DNA of 32,837 nt from a virus, in IMG/VR virus record IMGVR_UViG_3300032820_000060, positions 1-32,837 of that record, one strand, 5' to 3'. Under the pieces are notes generated by a model, which saw only the letters and a list, made by a program, of their open reading frames with translations, was not told where the DNA came from and ran no database searches. Every line of letters begins with the position of its first letter. Positions within the stretch are counted from its first letter, which is position 1. The position numbers and the translations under genes were made by a program. This document shows, one piece after another, positions 10,901 through 32,492 of this stretch.

Positions 10901-13218
10901 TTGGCTCCCGTTGATGTTATATTTCCATCTGACGCACCGAATAATCTTAGACCATTCTGCCAGATTGTTTCAATGTTAATAACAGGACTTGCACCAGCAG
11001 TACCAGTGGCCACAATATTACCACTAACATCAACTGTTGTACTAACCGTATAATCATTTAACCAATTAGTAAGTTTAGCATGTCGGATAATTGCATTAGC
11101 TATATTACCATATGGACTAATGAATATTTGACATCTGTTATTAGTAAAGTCGATTCTACCATCAGTACTATCAAACAGTAAAGATACCATAAACTGAAAA
11201 TAATCAAAAGAACTATCAATTTCAAAAGTATTATCAGCATTACTAGAAACATTAACCTTTCTGGTATGATTAGTCTGTGCATAAAAACTTCTTCTGTCTG
11301 TCCATGTCGTAGACCCAAAACTATAATCATAATTATATGGACTACTATCCGCATCCGCTTTCATATCATTAGTAAAATCAGTAGCTCCAGTATCAATAGT
11401 GAACAAATCAGCGGAAGGTGAAACCCAGATTCTTGCAAATTCTGAGGTTAACTTACCGTCAGGATCAAAATTACCTTCATTAGCACCATTAGCTGTTTTT
11501 CTGTGTACAGTACTACCTGTAATCGTACTATTTGATCTATTTCCTGAAGGATCTGCATTAGTATTTGTCGTAGTAGTTTCAGCCCCTGTCTGTGTCCATG
11601 TTGGATGTTTTTTCTTAATAGTATTAGGAACCACACGTTTTGTAGTATAATTAGTTCCGCCTATAGTTTGTACAGAATGTCCTACCTGAGTTTCCGTTGG
11701 ATTATCTACAGTATTTTCAAATACACCAGACTCATACAAAACAGCACCTGTCATTTGAATCTTATTAGCAGAATTAGTGATCTGTTCTGTATCCTTTACA
11801 GGATTAATAGCTCTAGCTAATTCATCCAAATACATACCATTCCATGTAATCTCATTGCCAGTTGGAGTAGTAAACTTAAAATTATACTCGACTGTTAGGT
11901 TATCGTTCCTATCAATCTTGATTTGATTACCAGCTGGTGGACAATAGTATGCAATAGTTTCTGGATCAACAGAATATGTTCCTGCAAAAACATCATCTGA
12001 ATACATTACTTTGGATGGAAAATTTTGTACCTCGATCGCAACTACCTGACCAGTTTTTTCTGTTTCAACATCTCTCGTAATCCATTTATTGGATGGATTA
12101 TTTTGATTCCATTTTTCCGTATTCTCTGATCTAGTATTAAAAGACCAATACCATCTTTCTTCTGGAGTATCTAAGGTATAGTCAACAGCATAAAACTTTT
12201 TTGAATCCTCTCCATCAAAAACACTACCCTCGAAAAATTCCTTAGTAACAACCCCACGAATTAACTCAAGACCATCACCATTATCGGCTGAATATTGTCT
12301 TCCATCATCTACTTCTGGAGTCGCATCACTTCCCGAAGAACCATTTACCCATATAGTTCCATTGACATCCTTACCGTTTTTTAGTTGATATTTCGCAATC
12401 ATTTCCTCATCATCTGTCTTAAATGCAGCAGGAGTCCATTTCCCAGCACCCATTGATTGACGGATAATGGATTGTGTACCACCATACGCTTGACTATCTA
12501 ACACATCCCAATCAAACCAACTTTTTGCCCAATTGGTATACTTGTCAATATTGATTGTAGGTAATAGATTACCATTATCAGCAATTCTTACATTCTCTCT
12601 AGCAGGTTTAAACAGTGGTTGTTTAAGTCCAGGCACTGGATTACCACCACCGTCAAGAACAGGAGTATATCCAACAAAAACATTTTGATTAAAATCAAAT
12701 GCATTCTGTGCATTAAAGGAAGTCCATTCTCCTGTATCTGGATTTAAGTCCTTACCCATTCTCATTTCCTGTGGATTAAACCCTTCAATCAGTTGAGCTT
12801 GTCTAGTATCCACATTACCAATGACACCATATCTACTCTCACCCAAATGTTGTGCAGAAGCACCACCATATGTTACATAATCTAGTGTAGAAGTAAATCC
12901 ATTTTTAACATTATCCTTAATAGTACTACTTAACAACGCATCAGTTGTATCTTTTCCAACTGTAACTTTGAACTGGTAAGCAATTAATTTGTTCGACCAA
13001 TAATATCCTTCTGGATTCGTATCTGTCAGTTCGTTTCCTTGAGAATCGAACAGAGTCTCCTGATCTCCATAGAGGATAGCATTGATTAAGTTTTCTCTGA
13101 AATGTTTTGTAATTGTGTTTTTAAAGCCATGTTTCTGGATTGTACCGTCAGGCTTAGTAACAACAAGATTTCCAAAACCTTCAATAGAATTAATAAATTC
13201 CGTAATCTTCTTTTTCAT
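7963..13218 (-). CDS. Large unrecognised virion protein, 1751 residues
   Basis: The N-terminus (MKKKITEFINSIEGFGNLVV, then DGTIQKHGFKNTITKHFREN) resembles the opening of many phage tail and fibre proteins, where a short G-x-hydrophobic-DG...N segment starts a structural chain. The rest is unrecognised. It is rich in Asp, Asn, Thr, Gly, Ser and aromatic residues, with no membrane segment or signal peptide, and looks like a chain of beta domains. A threefold motif of the form GT-x-x-(N/A)D...GN-x-PP lies at about residues 1105-1227. The C-terminus ends in TWTPGDQVQLSWT, much like the end of the 268-residue protein. AAGGAG precedes the ATG. Its size and place between the giant protein and gp8 suggest a virion fibre or baseplate decoration. 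Enzymatic activity cannot be judged. Confidence 0.85.
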   Translation of the reverse strand: MKKKITEFINSIEGFGNLVVTKPDGTIQKHGFKNTITKHFRENLINAILYGDQETLFDSQGNELTDTNPEGYYWSNKLIAYQFKVTVGKDTTDALLSSTIKDNVKNGFTSTLDYVTYGGASAQHLGESRYGVIGNVDTRQAQLIEGFNPQEMRMGKDLNPDTGEWTSFNAQNAFDFNQNVFVGYTPVLDGGGNPVPGLKQPLFKPARENVRIADNGNLLPTINIDKYTNWAKSWFDWDVLDSQAYGGTQSIIRQSMGAGKWTPAAFKTDDEEMIAKYQLKNGKDVNGTIWVNGSSGSDATPEVDDGRQYSADNGDGLELIRGVVTKEFFEGSVFDGEDSKKFYAVDYTLDTPEERWYWSFNTRSENTEKWNQNNPSNKWITRDVETEKTGQVVAIEVQNFPSKVMYSDDVFAGTYSVDPETIAYYCPPAGNQIKIDRNDNLTVEYNFKFTTPTGNEITWNGMYLDELARAINPVKDTEQITNSANKIQMTGAVLYESGVFENTVDNPTETQVGHSVQTIGGTNYTTKRVVPNTIKKKHPTWTQTGAETTTTNTNADPSGNRSNSTITGSTVHRKTANGANEGNFDPDGKLTSEFARIWVSPSADLFTIDTGATDFTNDMKADADSSPYNYDYSFGSTTWTDRRSFYAQTNHTRKVNVSSNADNTFEIDSSFDYFQFMVSLLFDSTDGRIDFTNNRCQIFISPYGNIANAIIRHAKLTNWLNDYTVSTTVDVSGNIVATGTAGASPVINIETIWQNGLRLFGASDGNITSTGANTNNAGAVGDTLTATGLGLLHNYSDDAVKTLKMSSDSSDGSYMVRGTDTSEAIPVIDMKITSDSRFVTPPKFFTVNYGSQNGHPVPGNMHDQKIQSGWYLKEDWTDELDKLSEAGGFSQTSGFNWTDYYRSEDRDLIEQTTTNQKEHYLSPADPTGYGVEGFLKTGVFPEHQMGNVNYGVSVLHDSNDHKVYTESESILGTDPVADFSGDNTHTILYGGELYSHGDGSVLWDFQKSPVVVVGYVDENALAIEEPSHRWTELHLQPHQITVVDDDSGTTIEGDFVFRKADATQKYQSFVYPDPGGVTYNDFSYEAGNSYTVVTHPVFPTGHPNAGDDILGTNHADVAGNSPPNRWEYGNEWKYAPKTLTAGMDLIGTSDNDSEGNSPPNATWAVDDTYYKSEILTAGGQLDVDFLAGSQATWHDSIVGTSANDARGNPPQNGSWDIGDSFVLAKWEIQDYDQFLGQKFSGRDGSESTIVWDFSEINYPDRVLVFNANEGTTHSVVAEDAPNSRFISNTINTLVSSEATYITYDGDRTLDNYKNFMVRLKQLVGSRNLKKVSLRDYIPRTIDFDPTIYEKKMLTETGIQYSYIKQGDTPVIDNSGVYSTSDTTISGGNNFAQALQQGYRETAPFRLSFARDAANNNENISDNYDFLDNTTLAQVIDTELDGFKHAKDNSLILKRDASYGRFGTTTSSNSDNSYSWPVPTNTPFGDFTSAEDKWGVDTTAHYGFTPTEMEDKFPVYKCWTSRMIPSIKYDWYADDGETIITGDFPIPASFRVNGQVNQPLVGTSEYNDGSTTMSYAERLMDEIEEGGLIPFPSIVDMITLVKTIETTPSESIKIQSATNITADPPEYTLADAKRLFFNHDFRKTVNGEEVDNEVGDTVTVEHYFRSDTQLMQFVTSIAPYGFKEMYEYDNATPNRMRLSLPHPDFHMFFGFVDVGAGSTGGANIGDSGPTWTPGDQVQLSWTVKPPASGSGS
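9537..9904 (-). repeat. Three diverged protein repeats inside the 1751-residue gene
   Basis: Three consecutive units of about 36-40 residues share a core: GTNHADVAGNSPPNRW, GTSDNDSEGNSPPNATW and GTSANDARGNPPQNGSW. Each is followed by an acidic or Gly-containing turn with an aromatic residue (EYGNEW, AVDDTY, DIGDSF). The units resemble short carbohydrate-binding or linker repeats, but no family is recognised. The DNA copies are clearly diverged, so the duplication is not recent. Confidence 0.75.
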
Positions 13219-13232
13219 TCTTATTCTCCTTA

Positions 13233-15062
13233 TTATTGTGCTATTGAATTGCCTAACGGAACTGATATTTTTAACTTATCGTTTTTTGTAAAATCTGCGT
13301 GTGGTTGGAAAGGTAAAACCATTTTAAAATTAAAAGCATCATTGTCAAATCTACCAAAATCTCCCCTTGTATTACTTCCGGCGGGAACATTCGTTATTGA
13401 ACTCCACCACATACTAGGATCAAATAAAACCAAAGTCAGTTGATTCTCAAACGATTTAATATTATATTCATTTCCAAGATCTATATCCAAATGATTTGTT
13501 GTACTGCTTTCACCTGTCAAATATTTACTCAAAAATGCAACGTGGTTAGCAGGGTCTGTATTTCCAACTTTCATAGAACTTACTACACTTGCAGTTAGAT
13601 CATTAGAAGCTTGATTAGCAACTAAATCATCCAAACCAGCTCTTAGAATGTCCGTTAAAATAACTATTTTTGGCCCATCCGTTTCTTGTATCATCATAAT
13701 ACCATTCTGTTCTAAATATGATGCATCTGACCCATGTTCTATTGCTAAAACTTTATCACTACCACTCCATCTATGGAAATCTGAATTAGCTGGGTAATTT
13801 AGGGAATCTGGAACATTTGCGTTCTGTGAATGTAATGATGTTATAACTTCTGTTCCATAATATCTTGTACCAGTTCCATCACCATCATATCCACCCGCTA
13901 GAAATGGAGTATTTCTTGATAGAATACTAACCCTAGATGGTAATAGAGTATCGGACGTGAAATTCTCCGTCTGGCCCTGTCGGAAAGCCCAATTTAATAA
14001 ATTTTTAGGAGCCCAAGATCCACTAGAACCACCATCACTATCACGACCCTTCAAGGAAAAACGAAGTCTTACGTCCTGAATACCATCGTTAAGATCTAAA
14101 TCGTTCGGTGAATCAGATGCCGTTAGAGGTTTATCAGTTGGCCCATACCATCCAAGTTTTGATATTTCTTCAGTGGAATCTAGTGTAGACGCTACTGTAT
14201 CTTCAGTAACACTATCGTTTGCAACTAAATCATAGTCTATTAAAGAATACCATCCTTGGGCCCAATTATTACCTGCAGCTCCGCCTTCTTTCAAAACAGA
14301 ACCAGAATTTCTAATATACAACTGTATAGTTGATAATTTTCCATAGTTATATGCAAAATTAGATCCACCTTCTTCCTGAGTGCCCCACTGACCTGAACCC
14401 TGAACTGTCCAAGCGTTTGAACCAGATCCACTTTCTCTCTTAAATAATACCGTATCAACAGGAACTCCTCCTTGCACACCACTACCAGTATAGGCCTCTG
14501 GGTGATTAATCAAAATAGTACCTGCATCATAATCGGCACCACCTTGACCAGTTGTTCCATAAGTAGGTGTTAGTGTTCCTACTGTTACACCCCATCCAGC
14601 CCCTTGTTCATCAGTAATAGAATGATTATCGGTAGCATCTACTTTAGTCCAGAAAGTTGCAAGATTCTCGTCTGCTTTTGCTCTAAAATCTGTTTCCAAT
14701 TCGTGTGTAGCTCCTACAACACCTATAATACCTACTGTATCTTTTGAAAATTTAACATATCTGTCTGTAGATGTATCTCCAACAATAGAGTCTGCTAAAT
14801 CATCAAAATTAGAATTAGTAAACGACCCATCTCCTAATGACCAATCGGTACTCTTTCCACCCAAAATAACGGGTGGCCCATTTTCAAATTTAACCACAAT
14901 AGCTAAACTTTGAACTGTAATATTCCTTCTAGCCGCAGATGATATAGAATTAACATCACTATTATCCGATTTTATCATTGCTAGTTGATAAACACATTCA
15001 TTCAACCAGTTTGTTAAAGTGGAATTGGATGTGTTGTTACTTGAACCTATTATTCCAGCCAT
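13233..15062 (-). CDS. Unrecognised virion protein, 609 residues
   Basis: The start MAGIIGSSNNTSNSTLTNWL is preceded by AGGAGAAA in the 14-base gap after the 268-residue gene. An N-terminal helical stretch (residues 15-30, LTNWLNECVYQLAMIKSDN) is followed by mostly beta-type sequence. The middle (residues about 150-350) is rich in Gly, Ser, Asn and Trp. Residues about 400-480 are a mixed region containing HRWSGSDKVLAIEHGSDASY and ETDGPKIVILTDILRAGLDD. No signal peptide or membrane span is visible, and no family is recognised. Operon context makes it a likely virion protein. It may work with the 268- and 1751-residue proteins, since the three genes form one block behind a putative late promoter. 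Confidence 0.85.
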   Translation of the reverse strand: MAGIIGSSNNTSNSTLTNWLNECVYQLAMIKSDNSDVNSISSAARRNITVQSLAIVVKFENGPPVILGGKSTDWSLGDGSFTNSNFDDLADSIVGDTSTDRYVKFSKDTVGIIGVVGATHELETDFRAKADENLATFWTKVDATDNHSITDEQGAGWGVTVGTLTPTYGTTGQGGADYDAGTILINHPEAYTGSGVQGGVPVDTVLFKRESGSGSNAWTVQGSGQWGTQEEGGSNFAYNYGKLSTIQLYIRNSGSVLKEGGAAGNNWAQGWYSLIDYDLVANDSVTEDTVASTLDSTEEISKLGWYGPTDKPLTASDSPNDLDLNDGIQDVRLRFSLKGRDSDGGSSGSWAPKNLLNWAFRQGQTENFTSDTLLPSRVSILSRNTPFLAGGYDGDGTGTRYYGTEVITSLHSQNANVPDSLNYPANSDFHRWSGSDKVLAIEHGSDASYLEQNGIMMIQETDGPKIVILTDILRAGLDDLVANQASNDLTASVVSSMKVGNTDPANHVAFLSKYLTGESSTTNHLDIDLGNEYNIKSFENQLTLVLFDPSMWWSSITNVPAGSNTRGDFGRFDNDAFNFKMVLPFQPHADFTKNDKLKISVPLGNSIAQ

Positions 15063-15076
15063 TTATTTTCTCCTAT

Positions 15077-15883
15077 TTACTCTTTGTTAAGTGCCGTGTT
15101 AGTATAGGTAAATTTCACAGTATCTCCAGAAGTCCATGTAATATTAGCTGTGCTACTATCCTCTGAAATATTACCCTCGTCTAATATAATATCTTGATCT
15201 TCGTTATATAGTCTATATTTAGTTGGTTCTATGGTAGAGTCAATCACTCCATATACTTCAATGGAAAAGTTTGACGGAAATGATGTATTTTGACTTACGA
15301 TATTAGTTCCGCTCTCACTCTGCGAATAAAAATCAGTTACAAAAGATCCAGACCCATCTGTTCCAAAGGAATCATCACCAAATTTCATATAGCCAGGATT
15401 TAACTTTGGTGCAATTGCATTACCCGTTAGTCTTTTTGCTAGCTGTGAATTTACTGTTGAATTTTGTGTGGCTATATTGAGATCAACTCCTATGGTTTTA
15501 ATATAATCATTCTCGTCATATTCGACCTGATCGTCTATATCAGCTGTATGGAGTAGTACATAATCACTGCCCTGAAATCCTAAATCAGATTCCTGATAGG
15601 AACTCATACCCCCATAACGATTATAGATGTTAATCTTGTCTATTTGTTTGGTATTGACTCCTGTTGTCGGTAAATAGTATCTAGTCAATCCACTAGTCCA
15701 TGTATAGGTAAATCTTAACAGCCCACCTACAGCCACACAGTTACAAGAGATATATCCATTTGTAGGATACCAATTGGCATCATCCTCAACCTTAAATTTG
15801 AACCAACTGTTAGTCGGTGAAAATACACTATTAGATCTAAGAACGTACCTAATTATATTATGAAAATCCGTAGTCGAAGCCAT
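15077..15883 (-). CDS. Unrecognised virion protein, 268 residues
   Basis: This is the first gene after the only clear intergenic gap. The ATG has AAGGAT 6 bases upstream and a TATAAATA promoter motif 23 bases upstream. Residues 1-25 (MASTTDFHNIIRYVLRSNSV) look helical; the rest is largely beta with many aromatics. The C-terminus (NITWTSGDTVKFTYTNTALN) resembles that of the 1751-residue protein (TWTPGDQVQLSWT). No family is recognised. Its size and position suggest an adaptor or baseplate-attached protein that could link the giant protein or the following fibres to the wedge. That is inference from context only. Confidence 0.8.
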   Translation of the reverse strand: MASTTDFHNIIRYVLRSNSVFSPTNSWFKFKVEDDANWYPTNGYISCNCVAVGGLLRFTYTWTSGLTRYYLPTTGVNTKQIDKINIYNRYGGMSSYQESDLGFQGSDYVLLHTADIDDQVEYDENDYIKTIGVDLNIATQNSTVNSQLAKRLTGNAIAPKLNPGYMKFGDDSFGTDGSGSFVTDFYSQSESGTNIVSQNTSFPSNFSIEVYGVIDSTIEPTKYRLYNEDQDIILDEGNISEDSSTANITWTSGDTVKFTYTNTALNKE

Positions 15884-15917: not shown

Positions 15918-18900
15918 TTAAGAGATAGTAATAGTAACCGAAGCAGTAAATGGGCCCATAAGATACCAAGTAGAACCTTGATAATCATACGGACTCGAAT
16001 TGCTAATATCTGTCCAATGTACTACTGTAAAACTTTTACCTGCAGCCCAGTATCCAGAAGCACTTGATGCTGTTAAATTATAATGAGTTCTACCTCCACC
16101 CGTCAATACATGATATTTTGAACCAGATTTAACCGCTATACCATCATAGCCATCTTCCCAGTTTCCGAGATTACTACTACTAATAGAAAGACCTGATCCA
16201 CCTTTCAGAACTGTTAAAGTAGTTCCAAAATCACCAGTAGTATTATCTGTTGCCTCGGTAAAAGTTTTAGTAATAGTTACAGAGTTTTTATAATTAGTAA
16301 AACAGGGTGGGATTGCACTATGAGTGTGTGTATAGGTAACTGAACCTGAACCCGACCACAAACCATAATCCTTACTCACAGACCATGTATATGAATGAGT
16401 CCATGTACCCGAGGCAGCATTTGTGTTTATATTCGGTGCATTAACAGATATCCCATGAGTAGAGCCACCATAAATATTTGCGGTCAAAGTATTACCATTT
16501 GCCGCAGTAAGACTAGCACCCCATGTTACGTCATATGGACTTGGATCAGCCGGACGACTAGATGATACACTCCAAGAACCAAGACTATAAGTATTATTTG
16601 AAAGACTCCAACTTGTACTTGTAGAGGTATAATTAGAAATAGATGGCGGGCCGGGATTAGCAGGTCTTGTGGTGGTCTTTACCTTAAATGTTGTTGTGTC
16701 AGACCCACTATGATTTCCATTGGCTGTCCAACTCATTTTTAAGGTAAATGTTTCTTCTTCGTCTGAATTATGCTCAGTTGACTCTGCTGTTACCTTTCCA
16801 GTAGAACTATTTACTGATACCTTAATACCATTTTTTTCATCATCCCCTTCTATTGAATAGGAGATAGATGATGCCTCCGCAGTATTTGATGATGATGCAT
16901 TTGTTCCATTAGCAGTACTCCCATTTGCCCAGTCCAAACCGTTAATATCACCATAAGAATTTATTGTTGGTGCTGGATCTGGTGCAGCTGGTCTAGCAGG
17001 TTTTGTTATTGTAATAGTAGCAGTATCTGTATGGTCATGATCTCCTTGTGCAATTGATTGATTATAGGTCATTGTTACTGTTTGAGTTTCATTAATTTCG
17101 TTGTCAGTTGCAGTATTGAGTTCATATGAAACCGTACCTTCGGGAGTAATAGTAGCCGTGCCAGCTGATATAGAATAACTAACTGTACCACCAGAACCAC
17201 CTACTGCATCTGTAAAATTCACACTAGAATATTTAGTTCCTGTCTCATTCCAAGTGTAACTAATGCCACTATAATTGGAAATTGATGCATTTGTTGTGGG
17301 TGCAGATGGTCTAGCAGATTGTTGAATGGCCCATCCAGAACTTTCAACGGTTTTAGTCCAATCAGAATTATCATGGGTAAATGCCCTAGTTCCCTTAATA
17401 CCCGTAATAGTGGTAGCAGATGATGCATTAGTAGTGTATGTCCAGAGTCCATTTGTATCAGTACTTCCAGCAATCAAAGCTCCCCATGAACCAGCAGTTA
17501 TATCACTATCACCACCAACTGAGCTCAGTTGAACTGAAAAATCATTATACCAATTTTTTGATACTGTACTAGCGGGCTCTCCTGTAATACTGGGCCATGT
17601 TGGTTCTGGATAGGCTGGGAACATAACTGAATCTGTCTTTTTAACATCCGTACCACTAGCAGTAGAACCACTATTATTTGTCCTAGACCAATCATACTCA
17701 TAGGTAATAGTAACAGTCTGAGTACTAGTAGTAGTATTATTACCTGTTAATGTTGTACCCGATAATCCTGCATGATCCCCTCCAGACGTAATAGTCTTAG
17801 ATACATTAGCATAAGAATAATTACTATCAGTAGTATAGGTAACAGCTACTCCACTATTGTAATTGGTGGGATCAGCAATAGATACACTATTGTTTGGTGC
17901 ACTATAGTCTGGTTCTCTAGCTTGGGTAATTTTCCATCCACTACTAGTAATAGTCTTAGACCAAGAAGGAGCTGCATCCAGAGTTGCAGTAACGGATGCA
18001 CCCACTCCAGTAATCACATTTTGAGCATTTGAAGTATTATTGTCAGTATATGACCAAGTGCCGTTAGATATAGATCCATGAGTAGTAGTCCAATCAGAAT
18101 AAGTGAAACTTGTAGAATCTCCAGATAAAGTTAAGCCTAAATCTTCATTCCAAGTACCAGACACATCAACATCACCTTGAATACTGGGCCATGTTGGTTC
18201 TGGATAGGCTGGAATTGTAAGGGTATCTGTTGTGGAAGATGATCCATACCCGAGGCCTCCACTATTAGTCTTAGACCAATCATAACTATATGTAACAGTT
18301 ACCGTTTTTGTAGAATTGGTGTTATTATTACATGTTATTGTACCCTGATATACTGATGCGTATGAAGAATTTTCTGTAATTTCTATACTAGTATAATTAT
18401 AACTTTCATCTCTGGTAGGTGTAACAGAAACACCCGTACTATTCCAGTTTGCTGGAGTACCACAACTAATCGAAACACTAGGTGCAGTCGGAACAGGTTG
18501 AGGAGTAGTAGTATGTACCCAAGAATCAGAATGACTACCCGTATGGTCAGATGAATTATGTTCCCAACTATATGTTGCTGTAATAGTTGCAGTCTCATTT
18601 GATTCGGTAGTGTTGTTATTTGAACTCCTAACGGTAAAACCACCACTAGAATTTATTGATGCGGATATCGCACCACTATTAGACGTAATAGTCCAAGACC
18701 CATTAAACCCTGAACCATTGGATACAGACATAGTTCCTGTTGAACTACCATTCCAGCTACATGAGGTATTACCTTGATTATTTACCGTTGGGGTAGTAGA
18801 GGGGGCTGGATATGCTGGAATAGAAATAGTATTACTATTAACTTGAACATTTGATCCAGATCCATTTTCGCCACTCTCATTATTTTTAGACCAGCTATAA

Positions 18901-21900
18901 CTATGGGTAGTGTGTACAGTTTTAGCAGAAGTTGAAACATTATTTCCATAAAGTATCCTATCCACACCAGATGCAGATAAAGAAGAGTATCCCCCACTAA
19001 TAGCAGTAGTTTCATTTGAATAGGTATATGTAGAATCCCTTGTTACGTTAGACTCCCAATCTGTATTCCAATCAATGGGATTTTCGTTTGGATTCTCTAG
19101 TGCAACGGTAACAGTAGGTGCCGTTGGAACAGGCTCTTTGTTGGAAGTATGGGTAAAAGTTTTATCAACCACACCCGACCACAAACCACCATTACTAGCT
19201 ACCCAATGATACTCAACTGTTACAGTTGCTGTTTTATTCTGTTGTGTAAGGTTTTTATCAGCTGTGGAATTACCTATCGTTACTGTGGCTTGATGATTAC
19301 CAGAATCTACAATAGTTCCTGTAATATAAGAAAACAATTGTGGGTCAACATCAATATCCCAACCATCCTCATATCCAGAAGCCGGTGAGTAATTCGTACC
19401 AGAACCCAAAGATACAGTAGTTGTAGTTGATGCATTATAAGCAGAAGAGGTATCGTAGATAGTATTAATAGATGGTGAGCCAGGATTTGTAGGTCTGGCA
19501 GGCATTTTGATATTATATGTAACATCCTGTGTACCTGACCAATCACCATCAACTTTATTAGTAATCCAATCTATAGTAACAGTAACATCAAAATCCTGAT
19601 TAGAAGTTTGAATAGGATTGTTATTAGAAGATGAGTTAGAAATATTAACCCCATAGGTAGAATTTGCATCACTCCAAACATATTGACCCAAAGTTATTAA
19701 ATTACTGGTAGACGTATAAGACCTTGATATGTCATCGGCTGAGGCCACATACTGACCACCCGATCCTGATAAAGAAAGATTATGAAAACCTGACCAGTTC
19801 CAGCCACTTGTCGTATCTGCAGTTGTATCTATATCACCAATTGTAGCTGTCATGTTGCCAGGATTTGCAGGTCTAGCCAACAACGACATTGCCGAATCAG
19901 CAATTACAGTATCACTCCAAGTATTTCCCGACCAGTTAAGAGTAACCCTGAAGTTCAGTGGATGTGAAGCTGTATTCACATCGGTATTATACCATTCTGC
20001 TTGTATTTTTGTATGATTGTCGATAAAGGAAACACTCTGTACATAACTACTATTTGTGGTTTCCTCAACATTCCAAGAATCCAGAGTAACCCCAGCAGAA
20101 TTAGTCATTGTTATAGCTCTTTTATCAGATCCACCATCTTCCACCTCTGCCTCATCCCACCATTTAACATCTCCCCATGCTGATACCGATAAAGTTGGTG
20201 CAGTTGGTTTTGCAGGTCTAGCAACAGTAGAAAAGGTAAAAGTTTCCTCAGTCCAACCAGTATCAGAATTTCCATGTTGTGCCCATCGTCTTTTACATGT
20301 AATGGTAGCACTCTGAGCAGCCAATCCAGCTGTATTGCTTAAATCACTCATCGACCAAGCACTAGAAACATATAATTTAGTTTTGTCTGCACTTTGAGAT
20401 ACTCCTATCTTACCATTGCTACTTACAACTTCTGGATCAGAAATCCAATAATGGTCATCAAAAGTTTGTCCAGTTGTTGGGGGAAAGGTAAATTCCACAG
20501 GAGTTGTAACATTCCATTCATTGTCTAAATCATCAGACATACTATAAAATGTTGGTCTGGTACTTGCCGATGCAGCTTCTGCTACATCAAAAGTAACCGT
20601 TGCTATAGAACTTTGTAACCCTATATCATCAACAGCTCTATATTTTAATAGATTAGAAGACGTATTATTAGCCGTACTATAGAAATTATTATAGGGGGTA
20701 GCTGATATTGCTGCAATATCCATTGAAGGAATTTGAGTACCTACACTAACTTGATATTGTTGACCATGAAAAACTGTAAGATTGTCGGGTATTTGTGTTA
20801 CAACAAATTTATCTAAATTATTGTCAATATCTGAACTAGTTAGTGTAAAAATAGTAGTAGTTTCATGTCCTATCTGAACTGTTTGATCTGTAGCCTCAGG
20901 TGCATTAGAATCCACTGTTCCACTTACTGTCAGTTCATCATAAGTGTCTAAGTCAGATAACTGAACCACAAATTCGTAATTGGTAGCAGGTGTTGTAGTC
21001 GGAGCTGTCGATATAGTAAGTAATCCAGTGCTAGAGATAGTCGCAGTTATATCAGTACTACCATTAACCTCTGCTCCAACAGACCAGCTGAGCACATCTT
21101 CGTTGTCAACATCCTGTCCAGTAAATTGTATCTGTTCAGTACTTCCCCGTATAATATTTGGTGATACAGTTACATTAGAAGCAGGGGATGTAATTACAGG
21201 GGCATCATTAATCGGTAATATATTATATTTAATCTGTGCCTCTGAGAATAGTCCAGTACTATCCGTCGCTTTCCATGTTACAGGATCATCTAAACCATAC
21301 GCATTAGCATCATATGTATAATTATAAGTTCCATTAGTAGCATGTACTAGTGTATACTGTCCTTTGGATGTATTTGTATTCCCTACAAAAGAATATGTAA
21401 ATTGTTCATTCGGGTCATCAGGATCAGAAACTTGACCTTCATCAAAATTATCTTGTATAGTTCTTAAAGTTTGAGTTCCTGCTATATTGTAGGTAGTATC
21501 CTCTGTTACCTCTCTTGATAAAACAAAACCCACAACGGGTGGATCAGGAACTGCATTCACATCAATATAAATTGTTGCGTTATCAGACCACGCATCACTC
21601 TCATCCTTTACTCGGTATATGAAATAATTATCCTCTTTATCACCATTCCAATTAGCAGTTGGTGTATATGTAACAGTGGTGTTTATAGGATTATTTCCCG
21701 TATGAGATAATGAACCCTCTAAATTTGTAGTATTAACAATATCCCAATGAGTTATCGCGTCGTCAACATCCGACACATACTGTGAAAAATCAATTACTAA
21801 ATCAGTATCTTCATCAGTAGAAAGGTTTTGCCAAGATGCTATAGGTGGATCATTAGTTGCAGCAATATTAATAGTAATAGTTTTTTCTTCACCAAGAACC

Positions 21901-24900
21901 TCACCATCATACATTTTATATTTTATATAAGTTGACCCATTCCAGTTTGCTTCATCTGGAGTCCAATATATTTCGTGATAACTACTACTATATCCACCAG
22001 ACCAAAGAGTATATGGCAAAGCACTGGTAGTAATAGTTTCTGTAGTTCCATCATCCTTATCTCTTGTAAAATACCCCTTTCCAATCTCTGTTATCACCCA
22101 CCAATGAGACGTATCATCTGGATCAGACCAATTACTACGAGTCTCCCCGGCTAATTCTATATGGAACACATCCGTAGCATCAGTATTACTTTCTGCAGCA
22201 GAAAAAGTCCAATCGTCATAGGTAGGTGGATCATTAACTGGAGTAACATCTATCCTCTCTATTACAGTATTTCCAAATGTAGTACCATCATGAGCTCTCC
22301 AATCAAATTGTGCTTGATCGGAGCCATGCCAATTTTGTACAGGAGTGAAAACTACTTGATTCTCTCCAGCACTACCAACCGCATCACCATCTGCCAACGC
22401 TGTACCATTAGGTTTTGTCAATTGACCATAATTATGATGTACGGCATGTACAATATAGTATGTAAGAGCATCGCCATCTGCATCCGTGGCAGTTAAAGAA
22501 ACAGTGATAGCAGTATCTTCTTGTGTGGTATGAGTACCTGCTGTTGCAACAGGAGAATCATTCACTGAGCTAATAGTAACAGGTACTGCAGCACTATCCA
22601 CAGTCTTATTGTTGGAAGTTGCAGTAAACTCCACACTACCAGCACTACCATGAAAGTTTGCTGTTGTTGGATTCCACCTGAAAGTTCTAGGGCCAGAAGC
22701 AGGTTCTTTTTCAATAGTACCATGAGACAAATTACTAGTACTTTTTACAGTGTAGGTAATATGAGCATCATCGTTATCAGGATCAGATGCAGCAGGAATA
22801 TCAAAAGTATCAGATATATCCTCTACCAATGTAATTGTATGGTCAGACGGTGTATCTAATCCATACCATACAGGGGAATCATCAACTGCATTAACAGTTA
22901 TTTGGATAGTTACTGCATCACTATATTTACCAGTATTATCATGTGGGCTCCTAACTTTATAATTAAAGGAGTCCATAAATCCACCCTGATCTGGTGCTGA
23001 ATATGTGAGTTGATTAGTAGATAAAAGATGGGGAACTGGAGTTGCACTACTTAAAAGTGTAGAGCTTCCCTGTTCTTGAAGATACCCATTAGAAGGCATT
23101 GTGGTTATATAATAACCAATAGATGTATTAGTTTCCTCATCTGAACCAATCAGGTCAAAATTTATCTGACCCTTTTCATCAACAGATAATGGCGAAGGAT
23201 TAGACCCACCTGCAACTGGGTTATCATCTACCATAGCTATATTAATAGCAATAGTTCCATCATTCTCACTATCCCACTGGCCATCATTTACCTTAAAGGT
23301 AAAACTATCATAGTCATTATTCGTACCATTATGAGAATAAGTAACTAATCCATTATTCAGAGAAGTGGTATCCAAAGTTCCATATGTTGGATTATTTGTT
23401 ATAGTATAGGTTAGGGTATTATTCTCTACATCAGAAGCGGGAAGTGTTATCGCAATACTCCCACCTTCTGAAATTTCATTTGTTCCAATTGTATCGTTAT
23501 GTGCAACTGGTTTATCATTAACATCATTAACTTTAAGATATACAGTCTTTTCTAGGCCATAGTTAGTTCCATCATGTGCCCTATATTTAAACTGATCTGT
23601 TCCATGAAAATTGGGAGATGGCATATAGAAAATAGGAACCGTTGTGGTAGTACCAGAATGTGTTACAGTAACCACATTACCATTATTCGCAGGATGACTA
23701 GAATCTGGAACTGGATCGTTTAGCTCGTACTCATGTCCAGAGTTGTAATCTGTCCAATAGATATTTAAAAGCTTACCATTTACTGGTTCTTCTGTGATTT
23801 GGAAAGTACATGCTTGTTCTTCGATATCAGTTGCGGATAAAGTTATAGTCATTCCATTATCTTCATTTGACTCTTGTCTATTTGATTCAGATCCAATCGT
23901 GGCTGCAACAGGTAAATCATTGACAGGCTGTGTATGCATCTTAAAGTCTGCGACTGGACTGTCTACTGTACCATCATTACACTTCCATGTAAAAGTATCA
24001 AAAGTATTTGGTAAATTAAACTCGTTGTCGTTGGGTATATAGTATACTGTTCCAGATAATGACTGTCCAGCTGTTCTTATTCCATTATTATCTTGTACCA
24101 CCCCCATAGAAGGCTCTGATACCAGAGTATAGGTCAGAGTATCCCCATTCGCATCACTTCCAGAAAAAATATAACTAGTTATATCATATGGAGTATCTTC
24201 TGTTCCTGATGGGGGAGTAACGTCTGGTAGGACAGGTACATCATTCGTAACAAAAAACAACGCTATTTTTTCATCTGAAGTAATAACCCCATCTGTACAG
24301 GTATACTTTATAGAGTCCATTGTCGCAACATCATTAGTGTAATCTGTATTTGGTGTATAGATATAAAATGGGGAATTGGGATATGCTGGATCTGGAGTCA
24401 ATGTTCCATTGGTAGGAGATTCTGTTATTGTCCAGCCAGTATAATTCTGAAACACTGCATGTAAATTAACATTTTTCGGAACATTTTTCTGAACTGCAAG
24501 AGCTCCAACATCAGTGGCTGTAGGATTCGGTATAGCTGTTATGTTTGGATTACTAACCTGTTGACCACCTACCGTAATATTAGTAGAAAAACTACTACTA
24601 GTGGATATGGTTTTCTCAGAACTAAGACCTGTTGAAAAATCTTTATTGGCTATCCTAAAATATGCAAACCCACTATCTACTGTATACTGGTTATTATTAA
24701 TATCACCCATATAAGACTTAACCATAAACATTATTTCTATGTCTGAAATTACGGTTTTTGGATCAATAATAAAAATTCCATCCTCAGAGTAATAAGTACC
24801 TCCACTCGTATCAACTGTAGTTTTAGGAGTTATCGAGTCTAAGTCATCCATAGAATTTACCTGATGAACCCAAAATCTAGGTGTGTCTCCAACAGGTATA

Positions 24901-26102
24901 TTAGCCATTTGAGTTAAAACGTCAAATTCAAATGAAGTAGTATGACCCACCTGATGTGGTGTTCCTGATGACATAAAATCACTCATACTAGCATTGGGTT
25001 GTTCTGTTATTAAATTTACTGGAGTTAAGTCAAAGTTGCTAGTAATGCTCTCACCATAGGAAATAGATTTTTCACCCGAAGTCAATGTTGCTGTACGTGC
25101 AATAGAGTTTGGTTCTTCTTGTCTCTCCCCACTAAAACTAACAGTACTGGAACTAATATCCTGAAGACCTTGAACAACTGAAACAACATTATAAGCTAAA
25201 TGTCTTTCACCACTAAAAGAAACAGTATCAACCGAAGCTTCTTGTATTGTTTGTACTACAGGAAACATATCCATATTTAACTCACGTTCACCACTAAAGG
25301 AAACAGTGTCGGAGTCAACTAACTGACCTCCCTGTACTACGGGAACTATATCCATATTTAGCTCACGTTCACCGTCAAAGGAAACAGTGTCGGATGAAAT
25401 CAATTGGCCTCCTTGTATCACAGGAACCATATTTATAAGAAGATATTTTTCCCCAGTAAAAGAAACCGTATCTGTAGAAACATTTTGAAAATTATCTACT
25501 ATTGGGAAAATTCCCATATTAAGTTCACGTTGTCCTTCAAAGGAACCAGCAACAACCGTTACTGTTTGTGTATTATGAACAACAGGAACTATATCCATAT
25601 TTAGCTCACGTTCACCGTCAAATGAAACTACATCTGAATCTACCAATTGGCCTCCTTGTATCACAGGAATTGTATTCATAGCCAAATATCTTTCACCACT
25701 AAAAGATTCTGTTATAGACTCAGTTAACTGAACTCCTTGTACTACAGGAAACATATCCATATTTAACTCACGTTCACCATTAAAGGAAACAGTAAGAGAA
25801 GAAATAGTTTGATTTGAATTAACAACAGGATGTGTGAGCATCACAAATTCAATTGTTATAGTACCCAAAGTACCTGTAACATTTGAGCCAGAATGGGAAA
25901 GAACATGTCTTACTTGAGTTGTACTTTCTTCTGTAATAGTAAAGGATTCAGATAATTGAACAGAAGTCGTAGAAAGATACTCGCGAGCCTGTGGTGCTAA
26001 AATGGCATATAAAGTTGCACCCAGATCATCTGCAAGAAAATCTCCACCAAACCCTACTAAAAATTCCTTTTCTTCTTTTGCTACATGTAGTTTTGCAACC
26101 AT
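15918..26102 (-). CDS. Giant repeat-rich virion protein (cadherin-like and Ig-like arrays), 3394 residues
   Basis: The gene fills nearly a third of the window. Visible architecture: residues 1-99 form a unique N-terminal segment (FGGDFLADDLGATLYAILAP). Residues 100-328 hold nine 27-residue repeats of the VSFSGERELNMDMFPVVQ type. Residues about 330-520 are unique. Residues about 520-1850 hold about twelve cadherin-like domains with joints such as VNDSPVA and INDAPVI and acidic ATDADGDALTY motifs, typical of Big_9/tandem-95 repeats, which often bind calcium. Residues about 1960-3260 hold about twelve Ig-like domains joined by Pro-rich linkers (ARPANPG, AYPEPTWP). A final C-terminal domain covers about 3262-3394. 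No signal peptide or membrane segment is visible. The start lies 2 bases after the wedge gene's stop, with only a GGGG-like ribosome binding site, so translation is probably coupled. The likely role is a very long fibre or adhesin binding cell-surface glycans; a tape-like or decorating role is an alternative. Confidence 0.85.
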   Translation of the reverse strand: MVAKLHVAKEEKEFLVGFGGDFLADDLGATLYAILAPQAREYLSTTSVQLSESFTITEESTTQVRHVLSHSGSNVTGTLGTITIEFVMLTHPVVNSNQTISSLTVSFNGERELNMDMFPVVQGVQLTESITESFSGERYLAMNTIPVIQGGQLVDSDVVSFDGERELNMDIVPVVHNTQTVTVVAGSFEGQRELNMGIFPIVDNFQNVSTDTVSFTGEKYLLINMVPVIQGGQLISSDTVSFDGERELNMDIVPVVQGGQLVDSDTVSFSGERELNMDMFPVVQTIQEASVDTVSFSGERHLAYNVVSVVQGLQDISSSTVSFSGERQEEPNSIARTATLTSGEKSISYGESITSNFDLTPVNLITEQPNASMSDFMSSGTPHQVGHTTSFEFDVLTQMANIPVGDTPRFWVHQVNSMDDLDSITPKTTVDTSGGTYYSEDGIFIIDPKTVISDIEIMFMVKSYMGDINNNQYTVDSGFAYFRIANKDFSTGLSSEKTISTSSSFSTNITVGGQQVSNPNITAIPNPTATDVGALAVQKNVPKNVNLHAVFQNYTGWTITESPTNGTLTPDPAYPNSPFYIYTPNTDYTNDVATMDSIKYTCTDGVITSDEKIALFFVTNDVPVLPDVTPPSGTEDTPYDITSYIFSGSDANGDTLTYTLVSEPSMGVVQDNNGIRTAGQSLSGTVYYIPNDNEFNLPNTFDTFTWKCNDGTVDSPVADFKMHTQPVNDLPVAATIGSESNRQESNEDNGMTITLSATDIEEQACTFQITEEPVNGKLLNIYWTDYNSGHEYELNDPVPDSSHPANNGNVVTVTHSGTTTTVPIFYMPSPNFHGTDQFKYRAHDGTNYGLEKTVYLKVNDVNDKPVAHNDTIGTNEISEGGSIAITLPASDVENNTLTYTITNNPTYGTLDTTSLNNGLVTYSHNGTNNDYDSFTFKVNDGQWDSENDGTIAINIAMVDDNPVAGGSNPSPLSVDEKGQINFDLIGSDEETNTSIGYYITTMPSNGYLQEQGSSTLLSSATPVPHLLSTNQLTYSAPDQGGFMDSFNYKVRSPHDNTGKYSDAVTIQITVNAVDDSPVWYGLDTPSDHTITLVEDISDTFDIPAASDPDNDDAHITYTVKSTSNLSHGTIEKEPASGPRTFRWNPTTANFHGSAGSVEFTATSNNKTVDSAAVPVTISSVNDSPVATAGTHTTQEDTAITVSLTATDADGDALTYYIVHAVHHNYGQLTKPNGTALADGDAVGSAGENQVVFTPVQNWHGSDQAQFDWRAHDGTTFGNTVIERIDVTPVNDPPTYDDWTFSAAESNTDATDVFHIELAGETRSNWSDPDDTSHWWVITEIGKGYFTRDKDDGTTETITTSALPYTLWSGGYSSSYHEIYWTPDEANWNGSTYIKYKMYDGEVLGEEKTITINIAATNDPPIASWQNLSTDEDTDLVIDFSQYVSDVDDAITHWDIVNTTNLEGSLSHTGNNPINTTVTYTPTANWNGDKEDNYFIYRVKDESDAWSDNATIYIDVNAVPDPPVVGFVLSREVTEDTTYNIAGTQTLRTIQDNFDEGQVSDPDDPNEQFTYSFVGNTNTSKGQYTLVHATNGTYNYTYDANAYGLDDPVTWKATDSTGLFSEAQIKYNILPINDAPVITSPASNVTVSPNIIRGSTEQIQFTGQDVDNEDVLSWSVGAEVNGSTDITATISSTGLLTISTAPTTTPATNYEFVVQLSDLDTYDELTVSGTVDSNAPEATDQTVQIGHETTTIFTLTSSDIDNNLDKFVVTQIPDNLTVFHGQQYQVSVGTQIPSMDIAAISATPYNNFYSTANNTSSNLLKYRAVDDIGLQSSIATVTFDVAEAASASTRPTFYSMSDDLDNEWNVTTPVEFTFPPTTGQTFDDHYWISDPEVVSSNGKIGVSQSADKTKLYVSSAWSMSDLSNTAGLAAQSATITCKRRWAQHGNSDTGWTEETFTFSTVARPAKPTAPTLSVSAWGDVKWWDEAEVEDGGSDKRAITMTNSAGVTLDSWNVEETTNSSYVQSVSFIDNHTKIQAEWYNTDVNTASHPLNFRVTLNWSGNTWSDTVIADSAMSLLARPANPGNMTATIGDIDTTADTTSGWNWSGFHNLSLSGSGGQYVASADDISRSYTSTSNLITLGQYVWSDANSTYGVNISNSSSNNNPIQTSNQDFDVTVTIDWITNKVDGDWSGTQDVTYNIKMPARPTNPGSPSINTIYDTSSAYNASTTTTVSLGSGTNYSPASGYEDGWDIDVDPQLFSYITGTIVDSGNHQATVTIGNSTADKNLTQQNKTATVTVEYHWVASNGGLWSGVVDKTFTHTSNKEPVPTAPTVTVALENPNENPIDWNTDWESNVTRDSTYTYSNETTAISGGYSSLSASGVDRILYGNNVSTSAKTVHTTHSYSWSKNNESGENGSGSNVQVNSNTISIPAYPAPSTTPTVNNQGNTSCSWNGSSTGTMSVSNGSGFNGSWTITSNSGAISASINSSGGFTVRSSNNNTTESNETATITATYSWEHNSSDHTGSHSDSWVHTTTPQPVPTAPSVSISCGTPANWNSTGVSVTPTRDESYNYTSIEITENSSYASVYQGTITCNNNTNSTKTVTVTYSYDWSKTNSGGLGYGSSSTTDTLTIPAYPEPTWPSIQGDVDVSGTWNEDLGLTLSGDSTSFTYSDWTTTHGSISNGTWSYTDNNTSNAQNVITGVGASVTATLDAAPSWSKTITSSGWKITQAREPDYSAPNNSVSIADPTNYNSGVAVTYTTDSNYSYANVSKTITSGGDHAGLSGTTLTGNNTTTSTQTVTITYEYDWSRTNNSGSTASGTDVKKTDSVMFPAYPEPTWPSITGEPASTVSKNWYNDFSVQLSSVGGDSDITAGSWGALIAGSTDTNGLWTYTTNASSATTITGIKGTRAFTHDNSDWTKTVESSGWAIQQSARPSAPTTNASISNYSGISYTWNETGTKYSSVNFTDAVGGSGGTVSYSISAGTATITPEGTVSYELNTATDNEINETQTVTMTYNQSIAQGDHDHTDTATITITKPARPAAPDPAPTINSYGDINGLDWANGSTANGTNASSSNTAEASSISYSIEGDDEKNGIKVSVNSSTGKVTAESTEHNSDEEETFTLKMSWTANGNHSGSDTTTFKVKTTTRPANPGPPSISNYTSTSTSWSLSNNTYSLGSWSVSSSRPADPSPYDVTWGASLTAANGNTLTANIYGGSTHGISVNAPNINTNAASGTWTHSYTWSVSKDYGLWSGSGSVTYTHTHSAIPPCFTNYKNSVTITKTFTEATDNTTGDFGTTLTVLKGGSGLSISSSNLGNWEDGYDGIAVKSGSKYHVLTGGGRTHYNLTASSASGYWAAGKSFTVVHWTDISNSSPYDYQGSTWYLMGPFTASVTITIS
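17315..19135 (-). repeat. Three A-B pairs of Ig-like domains in the giant gene
   Basis: Six consecutive domains of about 100 residues alternate between two types. A domains open with EPVPTAPTV, QPVPTAPSV or REPDYSAPN and carry a TVTYSYDWSKTN-like strand. B domains open with AYPAPSTTP, AYPEPTWPSI or AYPEPTWPSI; the last two end with WSKTITSSGWKITQ and WTKTVESSGWAIQQ. At the DNA level, 33 bases at 17586-17618 and 18180-18212 are identical, 594 bases (198 codons) apart. This is the size of one A-B pair, so the pair is the unit that duplicated. Confidence 0.8.
20550..24545 (-). repeat. Array of about twelve cadherin-like (Big_9 type) domains in the giant gene
   Basis: Domain joints appear in order at about residues 621, 726, 861, 957, 1077, 1182, 1292, 1417, 1519, 1632 and 1732 (TNDVPVL, VNDLPVA, VNDKPVA, VDDNPVA, VDDSPVW, VNDSPVA, VNDPPTY, TNDPPIA, PDPPVVG, INDAPVI, SNAPEAT). 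Most units hold a D-x-(D/E)-x-(D/N)-x-L-T-Y-hydrophobic motif and a G-T/S-D-x-F-x-Y/W-(R/K)-hydrophobic-D-G motif. This is the classic pattern of bacterial cadherin-like repeats. Unit lengths vary (about 95-135 residues) and DNA copies are diverged, so the array is old compared with the N-terminal repeats. Confidence 0.8.
25119..25805 (-). repeat. 27-residue (81-base) tandem repeats at the N-terminus of the giant gene
   Basis: Eight full units and one partial unit, with no insertions, cover residues 100-328. The consensus is VSF-x-GER-E/Y-LNMD-hydrophobic-hydrophobic-PVVQGGQL. Units come in sets of three: a Y-type (GERYLAMNTIPVIQ), an E-type with IVPVV and an E-type with MFPVV. The order is E, Y-E-E, Y-E-E, then an H/Y-type and a partial unit. 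The DNA confirms a 243-base period: 38 bases at 25342-25379 recur identically at 25585-25622, and 26 bases at 25401-25426 recur at 25644-25669. Another 47-base stretch at 25261-25307 recurs at 25747-25793 (486 bases away) with one difference. Confidence 0.9.
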
Positions 26103-30613: not shown

Positions 30614-31342
30614 CTACTTTATTAGTCTAATTAACAACACTAGATTATTATATAATAGAGAAATGGATTCTTTCAAAGTTGCATAACTATCCACTGCTGT
30701 TGTGTAATTATTTTTCGTCTTAGCCCAAACTGATAGTGCCAACTGTTTACTTCTAGTAACATTATCCACAATATCCTTCAACTGATAATATAGCTCTATC
30801 TGTTCTCTAAACTCTTCTTCTGCGGCACCAATCAATTTTTTCTTTAAGTATGCTTCTGCCGAGGAACGAAATCTTTCTTCTAAATCAAAAAAACCTCTTC
30901 GTGCAATATGTTGAGCGTATTCCACCCCTTTATTAATAGACTGAATTGTATCTGTAATGTTAGAGGCCCCAACTAATGCTGCATCCTGTAATTTCAAAAT
31001 CTGATTCTCAATACCCTGAGTGGAATTAATAATACTTTGAGTATTATCTAAAATTTCTGATAAATTTTCTGTATCAGTATCTAAACCACTCTGTTCCATC
31101 GGATCTTCCCCGATACTACCTGTTTGTATAAATTCCCCCAAGGCACCCACACCCTCAAGAGAAATATCTTCAATCTTAGTATCAGCCTCATTAAGTTTAA
31201 CACCAACCTCAGTACTGACTATATCATTAATATTGCTATAATTAATCACAGAACTGGAAACTGTTGAAGAAATTGTACTAGTCTTTCTCAAGCCCTCATT
31301 AATATCCTGTAACTTCTTATTAATTTTTTCATTCGATGCCAT
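30614..31342 (-). CDS. Helical coiled-coil virion-associated protein, 242 residues
   Basis: The start lies within the end of the gp5-like gene (14-base overlap, different frame), with GAGGT upstream, so translation is likely coupled. The sequence is mostly helical. It has an N-terminal polar segment, an acidic stretch at residues about 55-95, an amphipathic helix at about 90-135 (LSEILDNTQSIINSTQGIEN), a charged helix at about 147-190 (DLEERFRSSAEAYLKKKL) and a leucine-rich C-terminus (ISLLYNNLVLLIRLIK). No family is recognised. A helical protein encoded between the spike and gp25 could be a hub or wedge linker or an assembly factor; this is context only. Confidence 0.8.
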   Translation of the reverse strand: MASNEKINKKLQDINEGLRKTSTISSTVSSSVINYSNINDIVSTEVGVKLNEADTKIEDISLEGVGALGEFIQTGSIGEDPMEQSGLDTDTENLSEILDNTQSIINSTQGIENQILKLQDAALVGASNITDTIQSINKGVEYAQHIARRGFFDLEERFRSSAEAYLKKKLIGAAEEEFREQIELYYQLKDIVDNVTRSKQLALSVWAKTKNNYTTAVDSYATLKESISLLYNNLVLLIRLIK

Positions 31343-32492
31343 ATTTTGACCTCAACCCTTCAAGCCTAGTTGTCAGTTCTGATTCTAAGTCAGACCATCT
31401 CTCCAAATCATCCTCAAGTGTCTGTATTTCCGATTCAAACGATCTTATGGTTCCGATTAAAGCAGATAATTGTTCGATACTTTCATTCACTCCACTCATA
31501 GCAGTATTAACACCTGTACTCATACCCAAAGTTACTACATCATTTAACACAACTGGAACCACACCACTTGGAGATCCAACTGCCGCCCCCTGACCAATAG
31601 TAGCAGAAAAAGTATCTGCGGTAACATTCCTACCACTTACCGTTGTGCCCCCAACCTTAATCACCCCATTAACCTGTAAATTTCCTTCAATAGTAACAGT
31701 TGGTGCATTGAGTTTAACAAAATCACTATTAAGAACTACCTCGTCTGTGGAATTAACAGTAAGGGAAGTAGTGTTTTCTGTTTTGTTACCACTCACATCT
31801 TCAATAACACTACCATCTACTGATACATTCATGTTTTTATCAACAACCACATTCTTATTTTTGGTAATAAACTCATAATCATTACCTACTATTTTCGTTG
31901 TCTTATCACCATCTGGAGCAATTTCCAAGTAACTACCCGATCTATGAGCAACCGAAAGACTCTCACTGCCAGGAGTATCATTAACTTCTAAGATATGACC
32001 ACTCTCGGACTCTGATACATGGTTATAAGGATAGATTCTGGGTATATCACTATCATCACGCAAAGTTCCTTCAGTAACACCTCGTGCTAGTTTGGTAGTA
32101 TTTACATCCCCAATATCCGACTCTGCACCCACAGGTTTAGAAGGTTTAAAGGTATTTGTCTCTGGATCATTAAACCCTTCCAGTGGTTTGTTCTGGTTGA
32201 TATACCCAGCATCAATCATATGAGTCATGATAGGCTCTTGAGCACTCTCACCATCTCGAAAAAATCCCATTACCCATGTACCTTCTTTCACACTAGGTAT
32301 ACTGCCGGGAGTAGAATTAATGGGCATTGCAGGATAGGCCCAAGGCAAAGAATCTGTAGGAACCTCCGATCTATCTTCGGAATGAAATCCTAAAATCCTC
32401 ACTCGAGCTCGACCCAGTTCTAATGGATCTTGTCTATCTTCAACGACTCCCTGCCACCAGACGTATCCTGACAGGCCCATAAAATTCTGCAT
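31329..32492 (-). CDS. gp5: gp5-like baseplate hub spike without a lysozyme domain
   Basis: Residues 1-130 match the gp5 OB-fold: GYVWWQGVVEDRQDPLELGR (residues 9-28), ARVRILGFHSED, SLPWAYPAMP and a GTWVMGFFRDG segment. Residues about 195-300 show the short alternating repeats of the trimeric beta-helix needle (VVVDKNMNVSVDGSV, VTIEGNLQVNGVIKVGG). At 387 residues it lacks the lysozyme domain found in T4 gp5 (575 residues), as several marine T4-like gp5 proteins do. Residues about 335-383 are a predicted coiled coil (IEQLSALIGTIRSFESEIQT, then LEDDLERWSDLESEL), which T4 gp5 does not have. AAGGAA precedes the ATG. Role: membrane-puncturing needle under the hub. Confidence 0.9.
   Translation of the reverse strand: MQNFMGLSGYVWWQGVVEDRQDPLELGRARVRILGFHSEDRSEVPTDSLPWAYPAMPINSTPGSIPSVKEGTWVMGFFRDGESAQEPIMTHMIDAGYINQNKPLEGFNDPETNTFKPSKPVGAESDIGDVNTTKLARGVTEGTLRDDSDIPRIYPYNHVSESESGHILEVNDTPGSESLSVAHRSGSYLEIAPDGDKTTKIVGNDYEFITKNKNVVVDKNMNVSVDGSVIEDVSGNKTENTTSLTVNSTDEVVLNSDFVKLNAPTVTIEGNLQVNGVIKVGGTTVSGRNVTADTFSATIGQGAAVGSPSGVVPVVLNDVVTLGMSTGVNTAMSGVNESIEQLSALIGTIRSFESEIQTLEDDLERWSDLESELTTRLEGLRSKYGIE

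Follow-up and report, generated by a model that had tools for sequence, protein, structure and literature searches.

Baseplate cassettes similar to the one described in this work are known in the Pelagibacter phage HTVC008M and the Methylophilales phage Melnitz (Kyanoviridae). Both share gp25-like and gp6-like genes at 38-42% identity with the window, the whole 32,837-base virus record that was analysed, and carry gp7-, gp8- and DUF4815-like genes in matching order. HTVC008M and Melnitz are also the best named matches of the gp6-like product, at ~38-39% identity. In contrast, the genes lying between gp7 and gp8 in the two phages are not those of the window, this interval being variable, and neither genome has a match to the profile of the 27-residue repeat described below, which as a control recovers every unit of the record analysed here. 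A second term of comparison is given by large structural proteins of phages that carry cadherin-like domains. The structural protein of Cellulophaga phage phi46:3 gave a tblastn match of ~98 residues (40%) to the giant ORF of the window, which involves the cadherin-like part only, and the 27-residue array is unmatched in the phage records searched. A third term is provided by beta-helix proteins, such as the SufB/SufD core, the autotransporter UpaB and P22-type tailspikes, which are built of strand-turn coils. Most of the predicted, low-confidence model of the array can be aligned to them, but the structural alignments show 4-10% identity, that is, no sequence similarity. To our knowledge, exact 27-residue sequence repeats are not known in proteins of this kind.

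As judged from PHROG matches and from tblastn comparisons to HTVC008M and Melnitz, the window hosts a T4-like myovirus baseplate cassette, in which homologues of gp5, gp25, gp6, gp7 and gp8 are found in order. The cassette includes a gp5-like hub, a 242-aa protein, gp25-like, gp6-like and gp7-like genes, the giant ORF, three uncharacterised genes, and then a gp8-like gene and one encoding a DUF4815/VrlC-like protein. The gp25-, gp6-, gp7- and gp8-like products are wedge proteins. The variable gp7-gp8 interval is made of four ORFs:

15918..26102, minus strand: giant ORF, 3394 aa, with an N-terminal region, the 27-aa array, cadherin/Ig-like domains and further internal repeats
15077-15883, minus strand: 268-aa ORF
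13233-15062, minus strand: 609-aa ORF
7963-13218, minus strand: 1751-aa ORF

The last three ORFs have no Pfam or PHROGs match, and the 609-aa ORF has no match in phage records either. The gp5-like hub protein (31329-32492, minus strand) is only 387 aa long, as opposed to the 868 positions of the matched PHROG 430 profile, and given this short length may lack the lysozyme part. Within the ORF at 1-981, positions 106-503 contain short repeats in tandem, of 21 and 24 bases, and over its first 73 residues the ORF matches a gene of Melnitz with a tail fiber annotation.

Downstream of the array, the product of the giant ORF has Pfam matches past the cut-off to Cadherin_4 (E 3.7e-26), Big_9 (1.6e-20), Cadherin_3 (1.5e-11) and Cadherin_5 (3.1e-7), and the best of these cadherin/Ig-like stretches fall within residues about 860-1510. 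The protein is thus provided with tandem cadherin-like domains, and we infer that it may work as an adhesin. A second set of internal repeats resides in the C-terminal half, at residues about 2220-2990 (about 17100-19450 in the window). Self-BLAST of protein chunks shows lags of about 195-230 residues and 30-50% identity among these repeats, which have no phage match at E 1e-3.

The 27-residue array consists of eight complete, gap-free units of 81 bases (residues 96-311), followed by a partial ninth unit of 17 residues. Units are listed below in the order of translation, preceded by the N-terminal stretch:

25818..26102, minus strand: N-terminal 95 residues of the giant ORF, the last few of which (..HPVVN) are similar to a unit end
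25737..25817, minus strand: unit U1 SNQTISSLTVSFNGERELNMDMFPVVQ, E type, F23
25656..25736, minus strand: unit U2 GVQLTESITESFSGERYLAMNTIPVIQ, Y type
25575..25655, minus strand: unit U3 GGQLVDSDVVSFDGERELNMDIVPVVH, E type, V23
25494..25574, minus strand: unit U4 NTQTVTVVAGSFEGQRELNMGIFPIVD, E type, F23, the most divergent
25413..25493, minus strand: unit U5 NFQNVSTDTVSFTGEKYLLINMVPVIQ, Y type
25332..25412, minus strand: unit U6 GGQLISSDTVSFDGERELNMDIVPVVQ, E type, V23
25251..25331, minus strand: unit U7 GGQLVDSDTVSFSGERELNMDMFPVVQ, E type, F23
25170..25250, minus strand: unit U8 TIQEASVDTVSFSGERHLAYNVVSVVQ, H replaces Y
25119..25169, minus strand: partial unit U9 GLQDISSSTVSFSGERQ, with which the repeat ends

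The N-terminal 95 residues have otherwise no relative in the searches made, and on the basis of gene position are proposed to be the baseplate-side anchor. A degenerate unit upstream of U1 was discarded, as only the last residues match, and no domain is called there by the 27-residue HMM. Residues Q3, S11, F12, G14 and L18 are invariant in all eight complete units. The repeat HMM finds nine domains in the giant ORF product, and zero in the remaining proteins of the window. The residue at position 17 is, from U1 to U8, E Y E E Y E E H, and F23 is found only in units 1, 4 and 7. Both the equal length of the repeats, free of indels, and their Y-E-E alternation had been noticed in the first-pass annotation, and are confirmed, with H at the third Y place.

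The first-pass annotation did not recognise the repeat family, and no relative emerged from any collection searched. A tblastn search of 50,697 phage records, carried out with the 341-aa N-terminal part of the protein and with the array alone, gave no match to the repeat. No relative was found in IMG/VR with the 341-aa protein, with the unit profile, or with DNA patterns (three and two spaced SFxGE motifs; PV[VI]QGGQL; the core that had been suggested earlier as a query), nor in bacterial genomes with one DNA pattern; such scans require exact motifs, and distant relatives would escape them. The motif matches, either read or HMM-scanned, were collagen-like, low-complexity or due to chance. A collagen-like fibre repeat was discarded as well, as the units have no GXY run, and the collagen-like contigs retrieved by the pattern scans are unrelated. 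On the repeat, the best Pfam match (E 0.11) is below the cut-off, and NCBIfam scores are ~16-18 bits versus cut-offs of 107-200. The match to PHROG 37335 (21.9 bits) was taken as due to chance, since this profile also matches a pair of archaeal genomes used as controls, and reaches only 10.5 bits on its own stretch. No paper on a 27-residue phage fibre repeat was found in the literature search. The repeat sequence is new with respect to the collections searched, in a protein of an ordinary kind.

A hidden period of three, with a duplication unit of three repeats and not of one, had been proposed for the array. All the exact matches of at least 20 bases are found at offsets of 243 or 486 bases. 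Those of 38 bases (25585-25622 and 25342-25379) and 26 bases (25644-25669 and 25401-25426), 243 bases apart, are exactly as annotated; the recurrence 486 bases away is also there, but spans 43 exact bases (25737-25779 and 25251-25293) and not 47. Over the whole region, DNA identity is 60% at offset 81, 56% at 162, 63% at 243, 62% at 324, 62% at 405 and 65% at 486, thus lowest at 162, highest at 486, and at 243 only slightly above the values at 81, 324 and 405. Equal identity at 81, 162 and 243 bases had been set as evidence against the period of three, and the values observed are neither equal nor clearly apart. The best stretches of 60 bases match at 53/60 positions at offset 81, 47/60 at 162, 51/60 at 243, 53/60 at 405 and 57/60 at 486, and units 1, 3, 6 and 7 resemble one another at nearly every lag. 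As 53/60 matches also occur at 81 and 405, three units are not established as the sole unit of exchange, and the claim that the duplication unit must be three repeats was overstated.

The period was tested by permutation of the eight units. Over whole units the period of three is marginal (p 0.046 for DNA, 0.10 for amino acid identity, 0.039 for BLOSUM, 0.025 for same codon at shared residues, four non-independent values, all drawn from one data set). Over positions 17-23, p is 0.0036, the smallest value attainable in the design; as this segment was chosen after the data had been seen, the value to use is 0.029, corrected over 27 windows. By permutation, no period of three is found in positions 1-16 (p 0.50) and 24-27 (p 0.46). 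In the segment 17-23, units U1 and U7 read ELNMDMF and U4 ELNMGIF, units U2, U5 and U8 read YLAMNTI, YLLINMV and HLAYNVV, respectively, and both U3 and U6 ELNMDIV. The three-unit rhythm is therefore statistically supported, on only eight units, in one seven-residue segment, and is a real but modest feature of this strand-like segment.

At shared residues, the same codon is used more frequently within the three classes (70/104) than between classes (149/280), which is consistent with some past multi-unit duplication. Unit pairs at lags 1, 5 and 6 also share codons above expectation, and the excess at lags 1 and 5 indicates that exchange has not proceeded by threes alone. The pairs most above codon chance are U1/U7, U1/U6, U3/U6 and U6/U7 (lags 6, 5, 3 and 1, respectively), and in U3/U6 and U1/U7 the DNA is identical over positions 17-23. 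Recent exchange, invoked earlier to explain the likeness of the units, fits these four pairs; in many others, codon sharing is about that expected by chance. In the tree of units no branch is strongly supported. U2, U5 and U8 are grouped (bootstrap 67, SH-aLRT 93), and a constraint joining U1, U4 and U7 is neither favoured nor rejected. The data fit a history in which multi-unit and single-unit exchange are mixed. We give an even chance to the rhythm being a mere by-product of a history in which segments of a few units were copied, devoid of structural or functional meaning, a view compatible with either of the folds discussed below. The raised codon sharing within classes and at lags 1, 5 and 6, the two pairs with identical segments, and the U2/U5/U8 group, despite its low bootstrap, speak for it. 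Yet, U4 retains the class residues E, N and F, though its silent sites have no excess similarity to U1 and U7 (6/12 same codons with U1, 5/12 with U7, about 5.5 expected by chance), and the signal ends at the edges of the segment 17-23.

Structure was predicted by AF2 as single-sequence monomer models, with no homologous alignment. The model of residues 96-338 (pLDDT 65.8, pTM 0.58) is beta-solenoid-like, with three to four short strands per unit; that of residues 1-345 has a pLDDT of 53, and many of its structural neighbours are beta-helices. Short strands recur once per unit, with about one coil per 27-residue unit, at variance with the earlier suggestion that three repeats make one turn, or one face each of a triangular solenoid. 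Foldseek retrieved nothing below E 0.01 with these models. VIA-align of the low-confidence 96-338 model gave a Z of 16.9 with a SufB/SufD-type chain (rmsd 3.0 over 216 residues), 13.6 with UpaB and about 9 with phage tailspikes. Random perfect repeats are modelled by AF2 as beta-solenoids in over 40% of cases (PMC11795689), and the predicted fold is therefore not far from what could be obtained with a meaningless repeat. Because of this bias and of the low confidence of the models, the prediction argues only weakly against three units per turn, and does not prove a solenoid. Hydrophobic alternation in the proposed strands is not above that of shuffles (p 0.19).

On account of its location between gp7-like and gp8-like genes, and of the cadherin/Ig-like domains that follow, the array is most likely to be the N-terminal portion of a fibre or adhesin of great length. 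The explanation that we tentatively prefer, at somewhat less than even confidence, is that the array forms a structural rod at the N terminus of a giant T4-like myovirus adhesin or tail fibre, with one beta-solenoid coil per unit. Each 27-residue unit would most likely be one coil, with strands at about positions 8-13 (TVSF) and 17-23 (ELNMDMF), plus the PVVQ segment, and the five invariant residues could stack as ladders. The rod would join the baseplate-bound N terminus to the long cadherin/Ig-like string reaching for the host. The segment 17-23 displays side chains in the E-Y-E order, which probably originated from one or more multi-unit duplications, the protein being kept while silent sites diverged.

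Next comes a homotrimeric fibrous beta-shaft, in which three intertwined chains add one layer per 27-residue unit, and a single chain would not fold by itself. Parallel homotrimers are common among phage fibres and tailspikes, and short strands, conserved Gly/Pro and the low confidence of the AF2 monomer model are in line with such an architecture. We regard it as possible but rather unlikely, as no solved shaft matches in sequence, no fold match is significant, and cadherin-like strings are often monomeric. That the array is no rod, but a variable receptor-binding patch contacting host or sugar directly, is improbable: positions 17, 19 and 21, exposed-looking, vary as a set and could be reshuffled by unit exchange, but Pfam and NCBIfam give no match to a binding domain, and the N terminus of baseplate-attached fibres, close to which the array resides, is usually the virion-side end. 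There is likewise a slim chance that the array is a new fibrous beta-repeat with a surface code of three layers (E, Y and E along one strand) kept by selection; every third layer might then offer, as an example, an aromatic contact to a partner protein or a neighbouring chain. Blocks of three units acting as one structural repeat, with 81 residues per turn or triangular prism, would account for the rhythm of positions 17-23, the identical tracts at 243 and 486 bases and the codon sharing within classes, but are very unlikely, as the rest of the unit lacks the period, 8.6 units are not a whole number of triplets, models give about one coil per unit, and a coil of 81 residues is unlike those of known solenoids.

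As it stands, the array is one more uncharacterised repeat; if structural, its rhythm would help to explain how phage fibres are built. The long, repeat-bearing adhesins of marine phages have been poorly described so far, and an internal rhythm of this type can show how rods grow by block copying.
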